Positions 23,377 through 28,817 of a DNA stretch of 35,750 bases are shown one piece after another (position 1 is the first letter of the stretch; each line of letters opens with the position of its first letter). The position numbers and the translations under genes were made by a program. Source of the DNA: Bermanella sp. (lineage in GTDB: Bacteria; Pseudomonadota; Gammaproteobacteria; Pseudomonadales; Oceanobacteraceae); assembly GCA_002683575.1 (NCBI GenBank), contig NYTP01000016.1:8023-43772 (forward strand), in the 5' to 3' direction. The notes beneath the pieces are model-generated. The model had not been told where the DNA came from. It worked only from the letters and a program-made list of their open reading frames with translations, and made no database searches.

Positions 23377-23811
23377 TTATTGTGTTTTGATGGCATCACG
23401 CAATTGAGTAAAGATATCCCACTTTGTATCTTCTTCCGCCACAATCTTAATGGGGTATAAACCCGTATCGGTAGGAATAGAATTTAAATCAGCCTGCAAT
23501 TGTGTTGTGTCTTTTGCGTATAAAATCCATTGGTTCACCCCTTGGCACATAATCACCATGACAACCAAGGCATGAGCGTCTTTTTCTATGGCGCCCATCA
23601 ATTTTTGATTAAAATCATCAATGAAAACTAATTCTTTATTGCTAGGGTAACCGGTTTCAGGGTCAACATCCGCAGCGCTCCAAGAAATCTGCACGCACTG
23701 GTTAAATTCACCAGATGCCAATTCTGCATCCAGTTCATCACGGTAACGAATGGTAATAGGCTCATCATTTAGCGTGCCGTCTGCCAGCACCCAACGGTTT
23801 GAAAACGCCAT
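23377..23811 (-). CDS. DUF695-like protein
   Basis: A 144-residue cytoplasmic protein without signal peptide. It resembles DUF695: an early block WVLADGTLNDEPITIRYRDEL, a middle strand-helix section with LVVMVIMCQGVNQWILYAKD, where the WxLY strand is typical, and a late YPIKIVAEEDTKWDIF, matching the family's 'P ... EDPxW' end. The function of the family is unknown. The gene is monocistronic and convergent with the GTPase gene. The ATG at 23811 starts with MAFSNRW; no better alternative is seen. Family assignment is from pattern memory and only moderately sure. Confidence 0.65.
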   Translation of the reverse strand: MAFSNRWVLADGTLNDEPITIRYRDELDAELASGEFNQCVQISWSAADVDPETGYPSNKELVFIDDFNQKLMGAIEKDAHALVVMVIMCQGVNQWILYAKDTTQLQADLNSIPTDTGLYPIKIVAEEDTKWDIFTQLRDAIKTQ

Positions 23812-23909: not shown

Positions 23910-24764
23910 TTAGCGTATAGGGATCTTTAGGAACCGCCTACCCTGCTCATCGGTACTGGGCAAATGACCTGCGCGCACGTTGACCTGTAAGCTGGGTAGA
24001 ATCAAGCGAGGTGCGGCTAAGTTTTCATCTCGTGCTTCACGTTTAGCGACAAACTCAGATTCACTGACCCCTTGCGACACATGAATATTATCGCGTTTTT
24101 GCTCAGCCACGCTGACAACCGACCTTACATCGCGTCCATTGGGTGGATAATCATGACACATATGCAACTGAGCATCATCGCCAAGAGCAAAGATCGATTG
24201 AATTGAGCGATATAACTGAATCGCGTCCCCACCTGGAAAATCACACCGTGCGGTACCAATATCGGGCATGAATAAGGTATCCCCCACAAACACATGCACA
24301 CTTTCATTTGGCGCACGCACAACATAACTCAGACATGCCGGAGTATGACCAGGGGTTGCTAACGCTTGAATAGTAACTTCACCCAGTTCCAAAACATCCC
24401 CTGCCGATAGCAAGCCATCAAACAAGGCCTCTTGCTGGCTATTAATGGCAAATACCTGATCAAAATGTGCCTGGACTTGTGATACTTTATCGCCAATCAA
24501 GATACGACCACCCAGCTGTTGTTTTATATGCTGCGCTGCGCTTAGGTGATCGGCATGCACATGGGTCTCTAAGATAAAGAGCACCTTCAATCCAAGGCTG
24601 TTAACCCTAGCAATGACATCATCTGCAAAGATGAAGCTGGTTTGACCGGAATTGGCTTTATAATCCATTACGGGATCAATAATAGCCGCCTGCAAGGTCA
24701 TCTCATCATAAAGGATATGGCAAAATGACTGAGTATCTTGATGATAAAAGCTTTCGATCTGCAT
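23910..24764 (-). CDS. Persulfide dioxygenase-like MBL-fold protein (ETHE1/Blh type)
   Basis: A 284-residue enzyme of the ETHE1/Blh branch of the MBL fold. THVHADHL gives the family HxHxDH motif; the likely mono-iron ligands His68, His140 (TPGH) and Asp162 (VGDTLF) match the 2-His-1-Asp triad of ETHE1. DIGTARCDFPGGD and HMCHDYPPNGR are the two motifs of the Blh subgroup. ETHE1 oxidises glutathione persulfide to sulfite in H2S detoxification. Unlike Blh of Xylella and Agrobacterium, it has no fused N-terminal DUF442 domain, and no rhodanese domain. It diverges from an ArsR regulator of the BigR/SqrR type and a SulP transporter gene. AGGA 8 bases before the ATG fixes the start. Confidence 0.88.
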   Translation of the reverse strand: MQIESFYHQDTQSFCHILYDEMTLQAAIIDPVMDYKANSGQTSFIFADDVIARVNSLGLKVLFILETHVHADHLSAAQHIKQQLGGRILIGDKVSQVQAHFDQVFAINSQQEALFDGLLSAGDVLELGEVTIQALATPGHTPACLSYVVRAPNESVHVFVGDTLFMPDIGTARCDFPGGDAIQLYRSIQSIFALGDDAQLHMCHDYPPNGRDVRSVVSVAEQKRDNIHVSQGVSESEFVAKREARDENLAAPRLILPSLQVNVRAGHLPSTDEQGRRFLKIPIR

Positions 24765-24809
24765 GCTTTATCCTTGTATAAAAAATGAATAAGACTACAT
24801 TAGCAAAAT

Positions 24810-24849
24810 CTAATTTAGCTTTCATTAAATATTGTGTTAAATTTAGAAT
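24810..24849. promoter_or_regulatory. Overlapping divergent promoters and likely BigR-type operator
   Basis: The 109-base divergent region holds CTAATTTAG (24810-24818, a 9-bp palindrome) and a second AATTTAG at 24840-24846. Leftward, TTAACA (plus 24835-24840) and TAAATT (plus 24812-24817) are 17 bases apart. Rightward, TTCATT (24821-24826) and TAGAAT (24844-24849) are also 17 apart. A repressor on the AATTTAG repeats would block both promoters at once, as expected for a BigR/SqrR-type regulator. The promoter calls are inference. Confidence 0.42.
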
Positions 24850-24873
24850 AGCTCATCTACTTCCGAGGAAGCC

Positions 24874-25191
24874 ATGGAAACATTCCCCATTGCTCAAGAA
24901 ATGAAGGCTCACGCCACCGAGGCGTCTCAATTGCTAAAAGCCTTGGCGAACGAAAACCGCCTGATGATTTTATGCTCATTGGCTCAAGGCGAATTGAATG
25001 TTAGCCAATTAAACGATCGTCTCGATTTAAGCCAGTCTGCATTGAGTCAGCATTTGGCCTGGTTACGCCGTGAAAACCTGGTGAACACCCGCCGAGATGC
25101 GCAAACCATTTTTTATTCACTGCAAGGCTCAAAAGCCAAAGAAGTGATCGAAGTATTGCAGTCTATCTACTGCGCTGACCTTGCGAAGTAA
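24874..25191 (+). CDS. ArsR-family sulfide/persulfide-responsive regulator (BigR/SqrR type)
   Basis: A 105-residue winged-helix repressor of the ArsR family. The recognition helix region reads LSQSALSQHLAWLRREN and the wing RRDAQTIFYSL. It has only two Cys: Cys34 in LMILCSL and Cys100 in SIYC, 66 residues apart. SqrR (Cys41/Cys107) and BigR (Cys42/Cys108) have the same spacing, where the pair forms a tetrasulfide or disulfide in response to persulfide and so leaves DNA. The metal-binding motif of ArsR/SmtB sensors (CxC) is absent. It diverges from the dioxygenase-like gene and is followed 2 bases on by a SulP gene. GAGGA before the ATG supports the start. Confidence 0.88.
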   Translation: METFPIAQEMKAHATEASQLLKALANENRLMILCSLAQGELNVSQLNDRLDLSQSALSQHLAWLRRENLVNTRRDAQTIFYSLQGSKAKEVIEVLQSIYCADLAK

Positions 25192-25193
25192 CT

Positions 25194-26822
25194 ATGCCTA
25201 ACTGGCTTTTCCCATGGAGACAGGGTCAATGGTCACTGTCCAGTGACATCATTGCAGGTTTAGTGGTGGCTATCTTGATCATACCCCAAGCGATTGGGTA
25301 TGGATTATTAGCCAACCTACCTCCATCAGTGGCACTGGCTAGCTGTATCTTTCCTCTGCTTGCCTACACCTTGTTTGGCAGAAGCCACGCTCTAGCTATA
25401 GGGCCAGTCGCCATTGTCAGCTTAATGGTGGCACAGGCATTAAAAGACATAGACACATCCCAGGTTACAGGTGCGGCTCAATTACTGGCACTGCAAGTTG
25501 CTTTGATATTAGCGGCGATGCGCATGGTTAACCTTGGCCATATTGTAAACTTTATTGGCCATCCTGTTATTCAGGGATTTACCACCGCGGCTGCCGTGTT
25601 AATCATCAGCAAACAGCTGCCGCTTGTGCTGGGTGAGAACATCTTTAAACAAGGGATTTTCGATGTAGCAGTAACCACCCTGTCGGTTATTTGCCTGCTA
25701 GCATTGTTAATTTTTCGCCGCATCCCACACAGCTTTATCAGCAAACTTGGCCCCTTATGTGCTGTCATAGTGGGCAGTTTAGCCGTATATTTTCTGCCGC
25801 ACAGTTTTAGCACCATTGAATTAGGTTCACAGGCAAATAATCATGGCGTGATTCAATTTTCCATCCAACTGCCCTGGCATTTATTCGAGCAGCTTTTACC
25901 CAGCGCCTTACTGATAGCCTTAATTGGATTCCTTGAAAGTACCTCCGTTGCAAAAACCCTCGCCAAAACCCACAAAGAACGGATTCACGTGAATCAAGAA
26001 TTAGTCGGCATATCCAGTGCAAACTTTGCAGCCAGCTTATTCTCAGGGTACCCAGTGGCTGGGGGATTTGGGCGCTCTATGGTCAACCATCAAGCTGGTG
26101 CTAGTAGTCCACTGGCTGGTACCTTTACCGCGTCATTTGTTTTATTGTTTTTAGTCTTTGCGTTAGATCTCATTCAATATATCCCCCTTGCTGCTTTGGG
26201 CAGCATTGTTATTTTAGCTGTCTGGTCCTTGATCGACATCAGCCCATTGGTTCGTAATTGGCATATACACCCAAAGGAAAACAGCATATGGCTGATCACG
26301 TTTATAGGCGTACTTTGGCAAGGCGTTGAAATGGGCATTATTGCCGGTGTGGCTTTATCGGTTATTTTTTTAATTCGCAGTGCAGCCAAGCCACACATGG
26401 CCATTATCGGGCGAATCCCAGACTCCACACATTTCAGGAACATCAAACGACACAAAGTGATTACAGATGACAACCTGCTTGCCATCCGCATTGATGAAGG
26501 TATTCATTTTGCCAACATCGAAACCATCAATGCATTTATGGAACAAGCACTGGCACAATCGCCAAAGATTCATAATTTGTTGATTGTTTGTTCAGCCGTC
26601 AATATTGTCGACAGCGATGGCCTAGACCTTTTGCAAAGTTGGAATGAAAAGCTTCAAGCACAAGGTAAACAGCTGCATTTAGCAGAGGTAAAAGGCCCGG
26701 TAATGGATGAACTCAGTAAGCGAGGCTTCATAGAGGCGCTCTCACCTGGTATGGTTTTTCTTAGCACCAACCAAGCTTTTGATGCCCTTTCGCAACCTTA
26801 CGATGAAACCTATATAATCTAG
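25194..26822 (+). CDS. SulP-family anion transporter with STAS domain
   Basis: A 542-residue inner-membrane transporter of the SLC26/SulP family. The first helices carry PQAIGYGLLANLPPSVALAS and FGRSHALAIGPVAIVSLM, the SulP signatures. There are 10-12 hydrophobic helices to about residue 400, then a cytoplasmic STAS domain at ~425-535 (LLIVCSAVNIVDSDGLDLLQSW). Members carry sulfate, bicarbonate or other anions. The gene starts 2 bases after the ArsR-type regulator gene, so the two share a transcript. The context suggests a sulfur oxyanion (sulfite, sulfate or thiosulfate) made by persulfide oxidation, but direction and substrate are inference. Confidence 0.92.
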   Translation: MPNWLFPWRQGQWSLSSDIIAGLVVAILIIPQAIGYGLLANLPPSVALASCIFPLLAYTLFGRSHALAIGPVAIVSLMVAQALKDIDTSQVTGAAQLLALQVALILAAMRMVNLGHIVNFIGHPVIQGFTTAAAVLIISKQLPLVLGENIFKQGIFDVAVTTLSVICLLALLIFRRIPHSFISKLGPLCAVIVGSLAVYFLPHSFSTIELGSQANNHGVIQFSIQLPWHLFEQLLPSALLIALIGFLESTSVAKTLAKTHKERIHVNQELVGISSANFAASLFSGYPVAGGFGRSMVNHQAGASSPLAGTFTASFVLLFLVFALDLIQYIPLAALGSIVILAVWSLIDISPLVRNWHIHPKENSIWLITFIGVLWQGVEMGIIAGVALSVIFLIRSAAKPHMAIIGRIPDSTHFRNIKRHKVITDDNLLAIRIDEGIHFANIETINAFMEQALAQSPKIHNLLIVCSAVNIVDSDGLDLLQSWNEKLQAQGKQLHLAEVKGPVMDELSKRGFIEALSPGMVFLSTNQAFDALSQPYDETYII

Positions 26823-26846: not shown

Positions 26847-27317
26847 ATGCTGTATCTCGTGATAACCGCCACTATTATATTAGCCGCCCTTGTGGCGACC
26901 GCTGCGTATTACCTTATTAAATTACGCAAGGTCAAACACCAGCAAGCCGAGCAAATTCAACGCAATAAGGACGCTTGGCAAAAACACCGAGACGAACTGG
27001 CCAGTGATCTTCGATTTATTGCGAATTCCATGCTGCAAGGTCAGTGTGAAATCACTGAAGGCTGCCTACGAATAAAAGTACTGATGGATCGATTAGACGA
27101 TGAGCTGCAGCATAAACCTGAGTTCAAAACTATCCAGGCGCACTTTGCACAGACCATAACAATGCCTACCCATGAAGCCTATAAAGCACTCACCCGCCAA
27201 GAACAGTTCAAACAAGACAAACAACGTTTTGCTCTAGAAGAGGCCAACCGAGAACAAGTGTTAATAGAGGTAAAAATTCTGAGCGAATATAAATTCCATA
27301 TTTTGCAGCCAAATTAG
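26847..27317 (+). CDS. DUF2489 membrane-anchored protein
   Basis: A 156-residue protein with one N-terminal membrane helix (residues ~2-24) followed by a helical cytoplasmic domain. ELASDLRFIANSMLQGQCEITEGCLRIKVLMD is the recognisable core of DUF2489, a family common in Pseudomonas and relatives with no known function. The two Cys in this core are conserved in the sequences I recall. AAAGGG stands 8 bases before the ATG. It follows sulP by 24 bases, so it may be read from the same transcript, but nothing ties its function to sulfur. Confidence 0.8.
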   Translation: MLYLVITATIILAALVATAAYYLIKLRKVKHQQAEQIQRNKDAWQKHRDELASDLRFIANSMLQGQCEITEGCLRIKVLMDRLDDELQHKPEFKTIQAHFAQTITMPTHEAYKALTRQEQFKQDKQRFALEEANREQVLIEVKILSEYKFHILQPN

Positions 27318-27380: not shown

Positions 27381-28817
27381 ATGAATAAAACCTTATTGGG
27401 TTTATGCACATTAAGTTTAATTTCCGCCTGCTCAGGCCCTGCAATCAAAGATACCGCCCTTATCCAACAAGCAGCAATCAGTGAAGCACAAACCAGCGAA
27501 CTAGACCCAACTGAAGCCATTGAAACGAGCCGTAATTTACAAATCAGCGCCCAACAACAAGATCTATACTATTTTAGCCCGGGCTATATGGCGCAAGCAG
27601 AACAAGAAATGCAGAAAGCCGAGGCGGCCCTTAAACAAAACAAGCCTGCCAGTGAAACCGTAACCCATAGTCTTACAGCTCAAGCATTATTTGAGCGAGG
27701 CCTTACTAACAAAAAGGCCGTCTTAAATCAGTTAAAACCCAGTTTTGATGGCATGCAAATGCTCAGCGATATTAATGCACATGTTCTGGTGAAAGATGAT
27801 TTCGAGGACATCGAAGATGATATCAAGGACCTAATCATTCTCATTGAAAAAGGTAAAACCAGTAATGCCAGCAAAGACCAACAAGACGTATTAGATGACA
27901 TCACTGAATTAGAGATCGAAACCCTAAAAGTTGCCCACTTTAATCCAGCTGAAAACGCATTAGAAAAAGCAGAAGATGCCGACGCTGAAGACTTTGCCAT
28001 TAAAACTTATGAGATTGCAGAAAAAGCCGTTGAGAAACTGGAAACTCTCATCGAAAGCCAATACAAAAACCGCGAGTTAATTGCTGACAGCGCCAAAGCG
28101 ACAATTCGCCTAGCCCAACATGCTGAAGAAGTCGCCAAGGCCGCTCAACCACTTTTAAAACTCAATGCTGAACAAGCTGAGCAACATATCTTATATGTAG
28201 AATCACTACTAGACCGAGTCAAACAGGCTATAGGACACGACAACATCAACCACATGCCTCTTAAAAATCAATCCATCGCCTTGGCTCAAGCGGTAGAAAC
28301 ACTTAGCAAGCAAGCCCTAGCCAAACAAGGTAATGCTCAATGGGAGCAAGAAAAGCTCACGCTAGAAGCCACAATTAAATCCCTCAAAGAACAAGCTCAA
28401 TTGAACATGACACAAGCGCAGCCACAATTAACAACACCTGAGGTCACCGGTGGCAACGCAGTTGATGACGCCTCCCCAGACAACTCTTCAGTTGATTCGG
28501 CCCTGCCATTAGATCCTGTTGAACCGACGCCTGCTCAAGTAGATACCTTGCCAACACAAGAGCAAGCTGTGGACACAAGCGTACCTGAGCAACCTGAAAC
28601 CTTACAGTCTCAACAACCCACCAAAACGGCTGAGCCTATTGAGTCAACTGAACCTGTTGTAACCGAAAAAGCGATAGATCCGTCAGAACCTGTTGAAGTA
28701 GAAATAACATCACCCTCAACTGACGCCGAAATTGAGGAAACAGTACAAGAAGTCGACTCAGCCGAAGTGATTAACTCACAGGTAGCGCCTGCTCAGACAC
28801 CGACACAGCAACCATAA
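27381..28817 (+). CDS. Outer-membrane lipoprotein, helical with Pro/Thr/Glu-rich tail
   Basis: A 478-residue lipoprotein: lipobox ISAC (Cys17) with Ser at +2, so probably outer membrane. Residues ~45-350 are helical, with the DUF4398-like early section (YFSPGYMAQAEQEMQKAEAALK) seen in many gammaproteobacterial envelope lipoproteins. The last ~125 residues are low-complexity, rich in Pro, Thr, Glu, Val and Ser, likely disordered and perhaps a wall-spanning or surface tail. AAGG stands a few bases before the ATG. The function is unknown. It ends just before a hairpin and murI. Confidence 0.72.
   Translation: MNKTLLGLCTLSLISACSGPAIKDTALIQQAAISEAQTSELDPTEAIETSRNLQISAQQQDLYYFSPGYMAQAEQEMQKAEAALKQNKPASETVTHSLTAQALFERGLTNKKAVLNQLKPSFDGMQMLSDINAHVLVKDDFEDIEDDIKDLIILIEKGKTSNASKDQQDVLDDITELEIETLKVAHFNPAENALEKAEDADAEDFAIKTYEIAEKAVEKLETLIESQYKNRELIADSAKATIRLAQHAEEVAKAAQPLLKLNAEQAEQHILYVESLLDRVKQAIGHDNINHMPLKNQSIALAQAVETLSKQALAKQGNAQWEQEKLTLEATIKSLKEQAQLNMTQAQPQLTTPEVTGGNAVDDASPDNSSVDSALPLDPVEPTPAQVDTLPTQEQAVDTSVPEQPETLQSQQPTKTAEPIESTEPVVTEKAIDPSEPVEVEITSPSTDAEIEETVQEVDSAEVINSQVAPAQTPTQQP

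Follow-up and report, generated by a model that had tools for sequence, protein, structure and literature searches.

Persulfide sensors of the ArsR family (cluster 4: BigR, SqrR, HlyU, and YgaV) have in common a cysteine pair of helices 2 and 5, and a polysulfide bridge between two cysteines is accepted as their hallmark. HlyU reacts with persulfides, but not with H2O2 or GSSG, and it releases DNA after the polysulfide bridge has formed (PMC10509353). In A. baumannii, BigR, in which the pair is C34/C100, regulates yeeE-yedE-pdo2 beside a FisR/SQR system (PMC7315123). We analyzed a stretch of 35,750 nucleotides from Bermanella sp. (NYTP01000016.1, contig C16 of a draft genome that is 89% complete), hereafter called the window, in which the gene of an ArsR-family regulator stands divergent from that of a persulfide dioxygenase-type MBL-fold enzyme (PDO) and is followed by a SulP transporter gene. 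These three genes, referred to as the module or triad, had been described in an earlier reading of the DNA letters (the sequence-only reading) as a compact persulfide-sensing module. Judged by comparison with related genomes, the module is quite probably a persulfide-responsive detoxification unit, in which the ArsR sensor, PDO, and SulP are arranged around one shared operator.

Regulator, enzyme, transporter, and shared operator

The regulator gene (positions 24874–25191, + strand; HlyU/BigR/SqrR/YgaV type) encodes 105 residues with exactly two cysteines, Cys34 and Cys100, 66 positions apart, as the sequence-only reading had stated; its open reading frames, strands, and lengths for all three genes, and the divergent orientation of the MBL gene, were also confirmed. 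Among PDB chains, the best scores were obtained with two HlyU chains (4k2e, 112.7 bits; 3jth, 99.9 bits) and with 5znx, named a transcriptional activator (99.8 bits), followed by 6o8n-type chains, which we take to be SqrR (84.3 bits), NolR (76.4 bits), BigR (72.3 bits), and YgaV (64.0 bits). The NCBIfam model of BigR (NF040642) was the best family for the regulator, yet its score of 104.9 bits lay below the cut-off of 155 bits. Because the HlyU chains scored best and the BigR cut-off was missed, we call the regulator HlyU-like, a designation based on similarity to solved chains and on the likeness of the operator described below. The earlier term BigR/SqrR-like holds insofar as the protein appears to be a persulfide-sensor-type ArsR with SqrR and BigR among its nearest chains, but HlyU is closer than either. 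In the PDB alignments, Cys34 and Cys100 aligned with the cysteine pairs of the HlyU and SqrR-type chains, and the presence of the helix 2/5 pair in the aligned sequence suggested membership of the persulfide-sensor class.

The locus was compared across 44 genomes of the family, each with some ArsR match; 32 of these matches were strong, and the corresponding 32 loci were fetched. G028, in which the strong match sits elsewhere, was excluded, which left 31 syntenic loci for the counts given here. Of the 12 genomes in which no regulator match was strong, four (G033, G001, G022, and G020) encode a PDO of the module type; these four are outside the counts. The genus sample consisted of nine genomes, the present one (G000) and eight others. 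PDO was present at 28 of the 31 syntenic loci and SulP at 23, both together at 22, PDO alone at six, SulP alone at one (G004), and neither at two (G009 and G011).

The PDO gene (23910–24764, − strand) encodes 284 residues without a DUF442 half. The residues His68, His140, and Asp162, which we take to correspond to the iron ligands of ETHE1 (two histidines and one aspartate), were present in the window protein, and they were invariant in all 28 syntenic orthologues, as were His70, Asp72, His73, Arg173, and His204. Over its full length the protein matched the PDB chains 4efz (298.7 bits), 4ysk (295.7 bits; presumably the Pseudomonas persulfide dioxygenase), and 9g8t (278.5 bits), with human ETHE1 (4chl) at 66.9 bits. 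The NCBIfam model of Blh (NF040641) was matched in its dioxygenase half only (positions 143–420 of 423; 297.7 bits against a cut-off of 625). The iron-site residues and structure matches thus bear out the earlier assignment as an ETHE1-type enzyme and point to a protein of the persulfide dioxygenase type without the sulfurtransferase half of Blh.

The intergenic regions of the syntenic loci had an AT-rich element in common. In the window, this putative shared operator, ATTAGCAAAATCTAATTTAGC, lies at 24799–24819 (+ strand), with the core ATTAG-N6-CTAAT at 24799–24814, 34 nt upstream of the MBL start and 54 nt upstream of that of ArsR; a single element separating two divergent starts fits control of both genes. 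The genus pattern, ATTAG-N6-CTAATTTAGC, occurred exactly at the module locus in eight of the nine genus genomes, the window included (0 mismatches), and with 2 mismatches in G004. At the loci of the remaining family, 12 of which encode a regulator without Cys100, the element differed by 0–4 of 28 positions from the family consensus in 22 of 22 cases, the consensus being derived from the very loci scored; the genus loci differed from it by 5–9 positions. The window operator also has CTAATTTAG in common with the site at which HlyU was footprinted in V. cholerae (bottom strand of oligo O1; PMC4330345). In G033 (L243, contig C22, 1959–3848) the same locus is found, with YlqF, DUF695, PDO, and a divergent SulP gene, and there is neither a regulator in the 177 nt separating the PDO and SulP frames nor an operator between them (best, 10 mismatches of 28). 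Joint loss of regulator and operator is the behavior expected of a true regulator-operator pair. A weak sigma-70-like promoter for the MBL gene at 24812–24840 (− strand), with its −10 element inside the operator, was no better than chance (1 found against 0.8 expected in shuffles).

In the proposed mechanism, the reduced regulator dimer would occupy the single operator and repress both PDO and its own gene together with SulP. At raised levels of glutathione persulfide or polysulfide, sulfur atoms would bridge Cys34 and Cys100, the dimer would leave the DNA, and both transcripts would start. PDO would then convert glutathione persulfide to sulfite, and SulP, translated in step with the regulator and occupying the position that YeeE/TauE have in BigR loci, would move a sulfur oxyanion (sulfite or sulfate, in either direction) or balance charge. 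The persulfide may come partly from the SQR encoded elsewhere in the genome and partly from other cell sources, and within the genus the regulon would extend to an RND efflux pump and a membrane protein resembling YgaP.

The SulP/SLC26-type anion transporter gene with a STAS domain (25194–26822, + strand; 542 residues) begins directly behind the regulator gene, with the 2 nt between stop and start that the earlier reading had reported, and SulP started 2–3 nt past ArsR in six of the seven SulP-bearing genus genomes. Its domains scored above the Pfam cut-offs (PF00916, 265.8 bits; PF01740, STAS, 43.5 bits), and the NCBIfam sulfate permease model remained below its cut-off (324.4 against 380.45 bits). 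The best PDB match was the plant proton-sulfate transporter AtSULTR4;1 (7lhv, 263.7 bits), in which transport depends on Gln112, Tyr116, Ser392, and Arg393, and its drive by protons on Glu347 (PMC8298490). In the window protein, Gln32, Tyr36, Glu248, and Arg294 correspond to Gln112, Tyr116, Glu347, and Arg393, with Gly293 at the position of Ser392. When 26 SulP rows were compared (23 from family loci, the window's included and two incomplete, plus three others), the equivalents of Gln112, Tyr116, and Arg393 were present in all 26 and that of Glu347 in 22, and the Ser392 equivalent was glycine in 24. SulP is predicted to carry anions, perhaps coupled to protons, and to bind them at a site slightly unlike that of the plant protein; these residues do not fix the choice between sulfite and sulfate or the direction of transport. 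In G008, a near-complete genome, the SulP gene (L123, 9426–11043) was split over two overlapping frames by a frameshift or sequencing error. G012 has a SulP of 41% identity on another contig. An HlyU-like regulator followed by SulP was also seen in a Rhodospirillaceae metagenome-assembled genome (L067) and in Gammaproteobacterium UBA3532 (L012), the latter also with divergent PDO and YeeE genes.

Replacement of Cys100 within the family

Cys34 was kept in all 31 syntenic regulators, and Cys100 was replaced in 12 of them, by glycine (eight), serine (two), aspartate (one), or alanine (one). All 12 of these loci retain PDO, nine also retain SulP, and the operator is retained. Both cysteines were present in all 80 wide relatives of the regulator (the best 80 of 458 by similarity, taken from genome contigs and leaning to close relatives); within this sample, the loss is therefore confined to some members of the family. 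On the YlqF tree the Cys100 label required two changes, and strongly supported branches forced at least two; the PDO tree gave three, with one change still possible there. Both trees were quick and had some long branches, and such a count does not separate loss from regain. No single common replacement cysteine was seen: besides Cys34, the 12 regulators had varying sets from positions 35, 47, 48, 63, 72, 78, 80, and 82, or none (G018). Nor was a link found between Cys100 loss and absence of type-I SQR, which was present in nine of the 12 genomes without Cys100 and in 11 of the 19 syntenic genomes with it, G031 being scored as without type-I SQR, although one of its contigs ends in a fragment of a type-II SQR.

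In other regulators of this type, Cys108 of BigR, the equivalent of Cys100, was found persulfidated (PMC5823870), and C34A/C100A of A. baumannii BigR has been used as the allele without a sensing pair (PMC7315123). The equivalent of the retained cysteine is said to coordinate heme in SqrR (PMC9774250), and Cys31 of YgaV corresponds to Cys34 according to the aligned ranges. The regulators without Cys100 would be either locked or sensing in another way, and the conserved operator and enzyme favor the latter. We put forward only tentatively, as a rather doubtful proposal, that the dithiol switch was lost, probably more than once, and that the Cys34-only regulators changed their sensing (to heme, to persulfide at a single thiol, or to a new cysteine partner), so that the same module would be run by differing sensor chemistry. 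In the genus of G033 (g7), five of six syntenic regulators were without Cys100; that G033 went on to lose both regulator and operator favors decay and lowers the odds of changed sensing. Since PDO is kept where Cys100 is lost, and G033 is without the regulator, some members of the family can evidently do without the switch. The 12 orthologues without Cys100, next to orthologues that retain it on a near-identical operator, form a natural mutant set for testing the need for the bridge.

Operator sites elsewhere in the genus and alternative readings

When the nine genus genomes were searched for the operator pattern, at most 2 mismatches being allowed, 219 matches were obtained against 167 for the reversed control (G009 being covered only among the matches listed), and because this excess is weak, single matches mean little. 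Two sites nevertheless recurred before orthologous genes. The operator core (up to 1 mismatch) was found before the RND adaptor gene in six of six genomes with the orthologue, ending 79–146 nt ahead of the aligned start (L208–L213), in an operon of an HlyD/CusB-type adaptor and an AcrB-type pump. It preceded the gene at none of 10 loci of paralogous adaptors, which were those fetched among more adaptor matches; two of the 10 had a 1-mismatch core elsewhere. With the same threshold, the core was found before a gene for a 67-residue YgaP-like membrane protein (YgaP_TM, PF11127) in six of six genomes, ending 17–36 nt before the start codon (L231–L236). The chance level for such a core was approximately 2% in random windows and 1% in shuffled ones. 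The RND sites were first noticed in G004, G008, and G009; G005 and G006 gave weaker matches in the same pattern list, and G011 was not among the matches listed. The YgaP_TM sites were first noticed in G006 and G011, with G004, G007, and G008 in the same list and G009 not among the matches listed. As the sites were chosen post hoc, the later genomes check the gene and not the pattern. The E. coli homologue of the regulator, YgaV, controls ygaP (PMC9774250), and within the genus the regulator likewise appears to control the YgaP-like membrane protein and the RND efflux pump. Two matches had pointed to alaS as a regulon target; this candidate was rejected, the site being nearer to the divergent YgaP_TM gene. 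Neighbors of other genus matches included genes for a CobW protein, an S51 peptidase-like protein, a heme peroxidase, and a Tll0287-like protein. Among the open-licence PMC papers searched, none was found that combines HlyU, RND efflux, and sulfide, and PMC11858517 contains no mention of YgaP terms.

These sites bear on the possibility that the main role of the regulator in the genus is wider, directed at the efflux pump and the YgaP-like protein, with PDO and SulP as replaceable regulon members and not the core of a dedicated sulfide module, a reading that we regard as possible, with some doubt. G009 and G011 have lost PDO and SulP and retain the two-cysteine regulator, its own operator, and the RND and YgaP_TM cores; the sites kept there could explain why the regulator was retained. 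The Nevskia locus (L027) has the regulator flanked by SQR on one side and by an adaptor-RND operon on the other, the sole case of an adjoining adaptor and pump among the 80 wide loci when adaptor and pump queries were used. However, PDO was kept at 28 of the 31 syntenic loci, its metal-site residues never vary, further operator sites were sought within the genus only, and an orthologue of the pump is absent from the present genome.

For the proposal of a persulfide-responsive unit itself, several of these results count as unfavorable. The proposed switch requires Cys100, which is gone in 12 of the 31 syntenic orthologues, and G033 keeps PDO and SulP without the regulator. V. cholerae HlyU is best known as an activator, and for this reason repression in the module is proposed by analogy with BigR and SqrR. 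The excess of operator matches was weak, and in the present genome no RND-operon orthologue was found, nor were alaS and the YgaP-like gene found in its assembly; outside the module it had no convincing operator, one other 1-mismatch site (C91) lying inside an open reading frame. SulP is missing at six of the 28 syntenic PDO loci, and the serine essential for transport in the plant protein is a glycine in the window SulP. The loss of Cys100 would also agree with a signal other than persulfide, namely a metal or a different oxidant. The signals sensed by ArsR-family proteins are many, and RexT, a member of the superfamily, responds to H2O2 (PMC10509353). We nevertheless consider such a signal very unlikely, as the nearest characterized relatives HlyU, SqrR, and BigR are persulfide sensors, HlyU is unreactive toward H2O2 and GSSG (PMC10509353), and a PDO lies under the same operator. 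The transporter raises a separate question, for SulP proteins have varied substrates, and this one could be a sulfate or bicarbonate importer that stands behind the regulator by chance. The absence of SulP from the six PDO loci and the retention of the Glu347 equivalent, the residue of proton-driven uptake in the plant transporter, would suit an importer, but we judge it unlikely, since SulP stands behind the regulator at 23 of the 31 loci, 2–3 nt away in most of the genus. SulP is thus not a constant member of the module, being missing at those six loci. SulP also accompanies PDO without this regulator, as shown by G033, by G001, in which PDO adjoins SulP on one strand (L244, 4083–6666), and by G022, in which PDO, a DUF442 gene, and SulP stand in a row (L245, 4649–7799), neither of the latter with an HlyU-like regulator; G020 has PDO and DUF442. 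A Paracoccus plasmid and the Methylophaga clusters (PMC6548844) likewise have SulP next to genes for PDO and SQR-type proteins.

Genomic setting and comparison with known systems

Across the 31 syntenic loci, the module is flanked by DUF2489 (31 loci) and DUF695 (25), YlqF is present at 30, and at the eight loci without SulP, DUF2489 was the next gene recognized by the queries used. In the window, Pfam identified the neighbors at 23377–23811 and 26847–27317 as DUF695 and DUF2489, and 27381–28817 matched no Pfam family. No SQR, rhodanese, or DUF442 gene was recognized beside the module, the three neighbors being examined by Pfam and the remaining open reading frames of the window by eye. The earlier description of a stand-alone unit without these genes in cis thus stands for the locus but not for the genome. 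Contig C122 of the same genome (L169, 9731–15105) carries genes for a sigma-54 activator resembling FisR, a second PDO (Blh model, 358.4 bits), a peroxiredoxin, YebC, and an SQR of type I (3sz0, 558 bits), and rhodanese domains gave six matches in five frames elsewhere. The activator is presumably of the FisR type; NCBIfam gave for it only other activators of the same class.

SQR was found in none of the eight other genus genomes (G011 matched only the DUF442 half of the type-II query), and the nearest matches of the C122 SQR, with 89% identity, were in another genus. Acquisition of this SQR by transfer is possible. These two observations had raised the suspicion that C122 was misbinned, which was rejected as far as testable: its YebC was the one match in G000 and was closest to genus members (88, 87, and 82%), and its tetranucleotide correlation with the window was 0.966, compared with 0.917–0.980 for genus loci of the same kind. 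The description "without SQR" fits five other triad genomes, G005, G006, G007, G008, and G010 (75, 99, 90, 100, and 72% complete), in which persulfide would have to arise in some other way, provided that the proposal holds and that no SQR is hidden in the gaps of the incomplete genomes.

Among known loci, five plasmid records were compared, and in three of them (Klebsiella, Caballeronia, and Azospirillum) ArsR was divergent from PDO with YeeE-YeeE-TauE behind ArsR, the Klebsiella record having an insertion element within this arrangement. In a Sphingorhabdus record a sulfurtransferase gene lay between ArsR and PDO, and in the Paracoccus plasmid two YeeE genes were followed in a row by PDO, a fusion of SQR type, SulP, an MBL gene, and rhodanese, with no listed ArsR. 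In the Methylophaga clusters, pdo, sqrB, and sulP are joined, so that SulP with PDO genes has already been described, whereas ArsR has no occurrence in the main text (PMC6548844). No description of a PDO gene divergent from ArsR-SulP was seen among the open-licence PMC papers listed. SulP in such company is known; its replacement of YeeE/TauE directly behind an HlyU-like regulator is a variant that was not found in that literature.

The A. baumannii BigR operon yeeE-yedE-pdo2 resembles the window module in its C34/C100 ArsR sensor and in having a second PDO and FisR/SQR elsewhere in the genome, but its transporters are YeeE/YedE in place of SulP, and the present regulator is nearer to HlyU (PMC7315123). 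Vibrio HlyU is the closest solved sequence and has the cysteine pair and CTAATTTAG in its operator, whereas it activates a gene elsewhere and the regulator described here has the divergent intergenic region in common with PDO (PMC10509353, PMC4330345). In the bigR-Blh operon of Xylella and Agrobacterium, an ArsR sensor controls a dioxygenase of the same family and BigR binds the −10 region; unlike the window module, that operon has Blh with a fused sulfurtransferase half and a TauE-related transporter (PMC5823870). E. coli YgaV, an ArsR dithiol sensor, controls YgaP, and in six genomes of the genus the operator core precedes a YgaP-like gene, but the genus protein of 67 residues comprises the membrane part only and its gene does not adjoin that of the regulator (PMC9774250). 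The comparison with BigR/SqrR and Blh loci that the sequence-only reading had called for thus supported the kinship of persulfide modules, with SulP replacing YeeE/TauE and the sulfurtransferase half missing. The window locus is an ordinary, well-formed example of its kind, and the recurring genus operator and the lost cysteine are the two points that go beyond it: operator sites before the RND pump and the YgaP-like protein would link persulfide sensing with efflux in marine bacteria, and they could explain how the regulator outlasts the dioxygenase where the latter has been lost.

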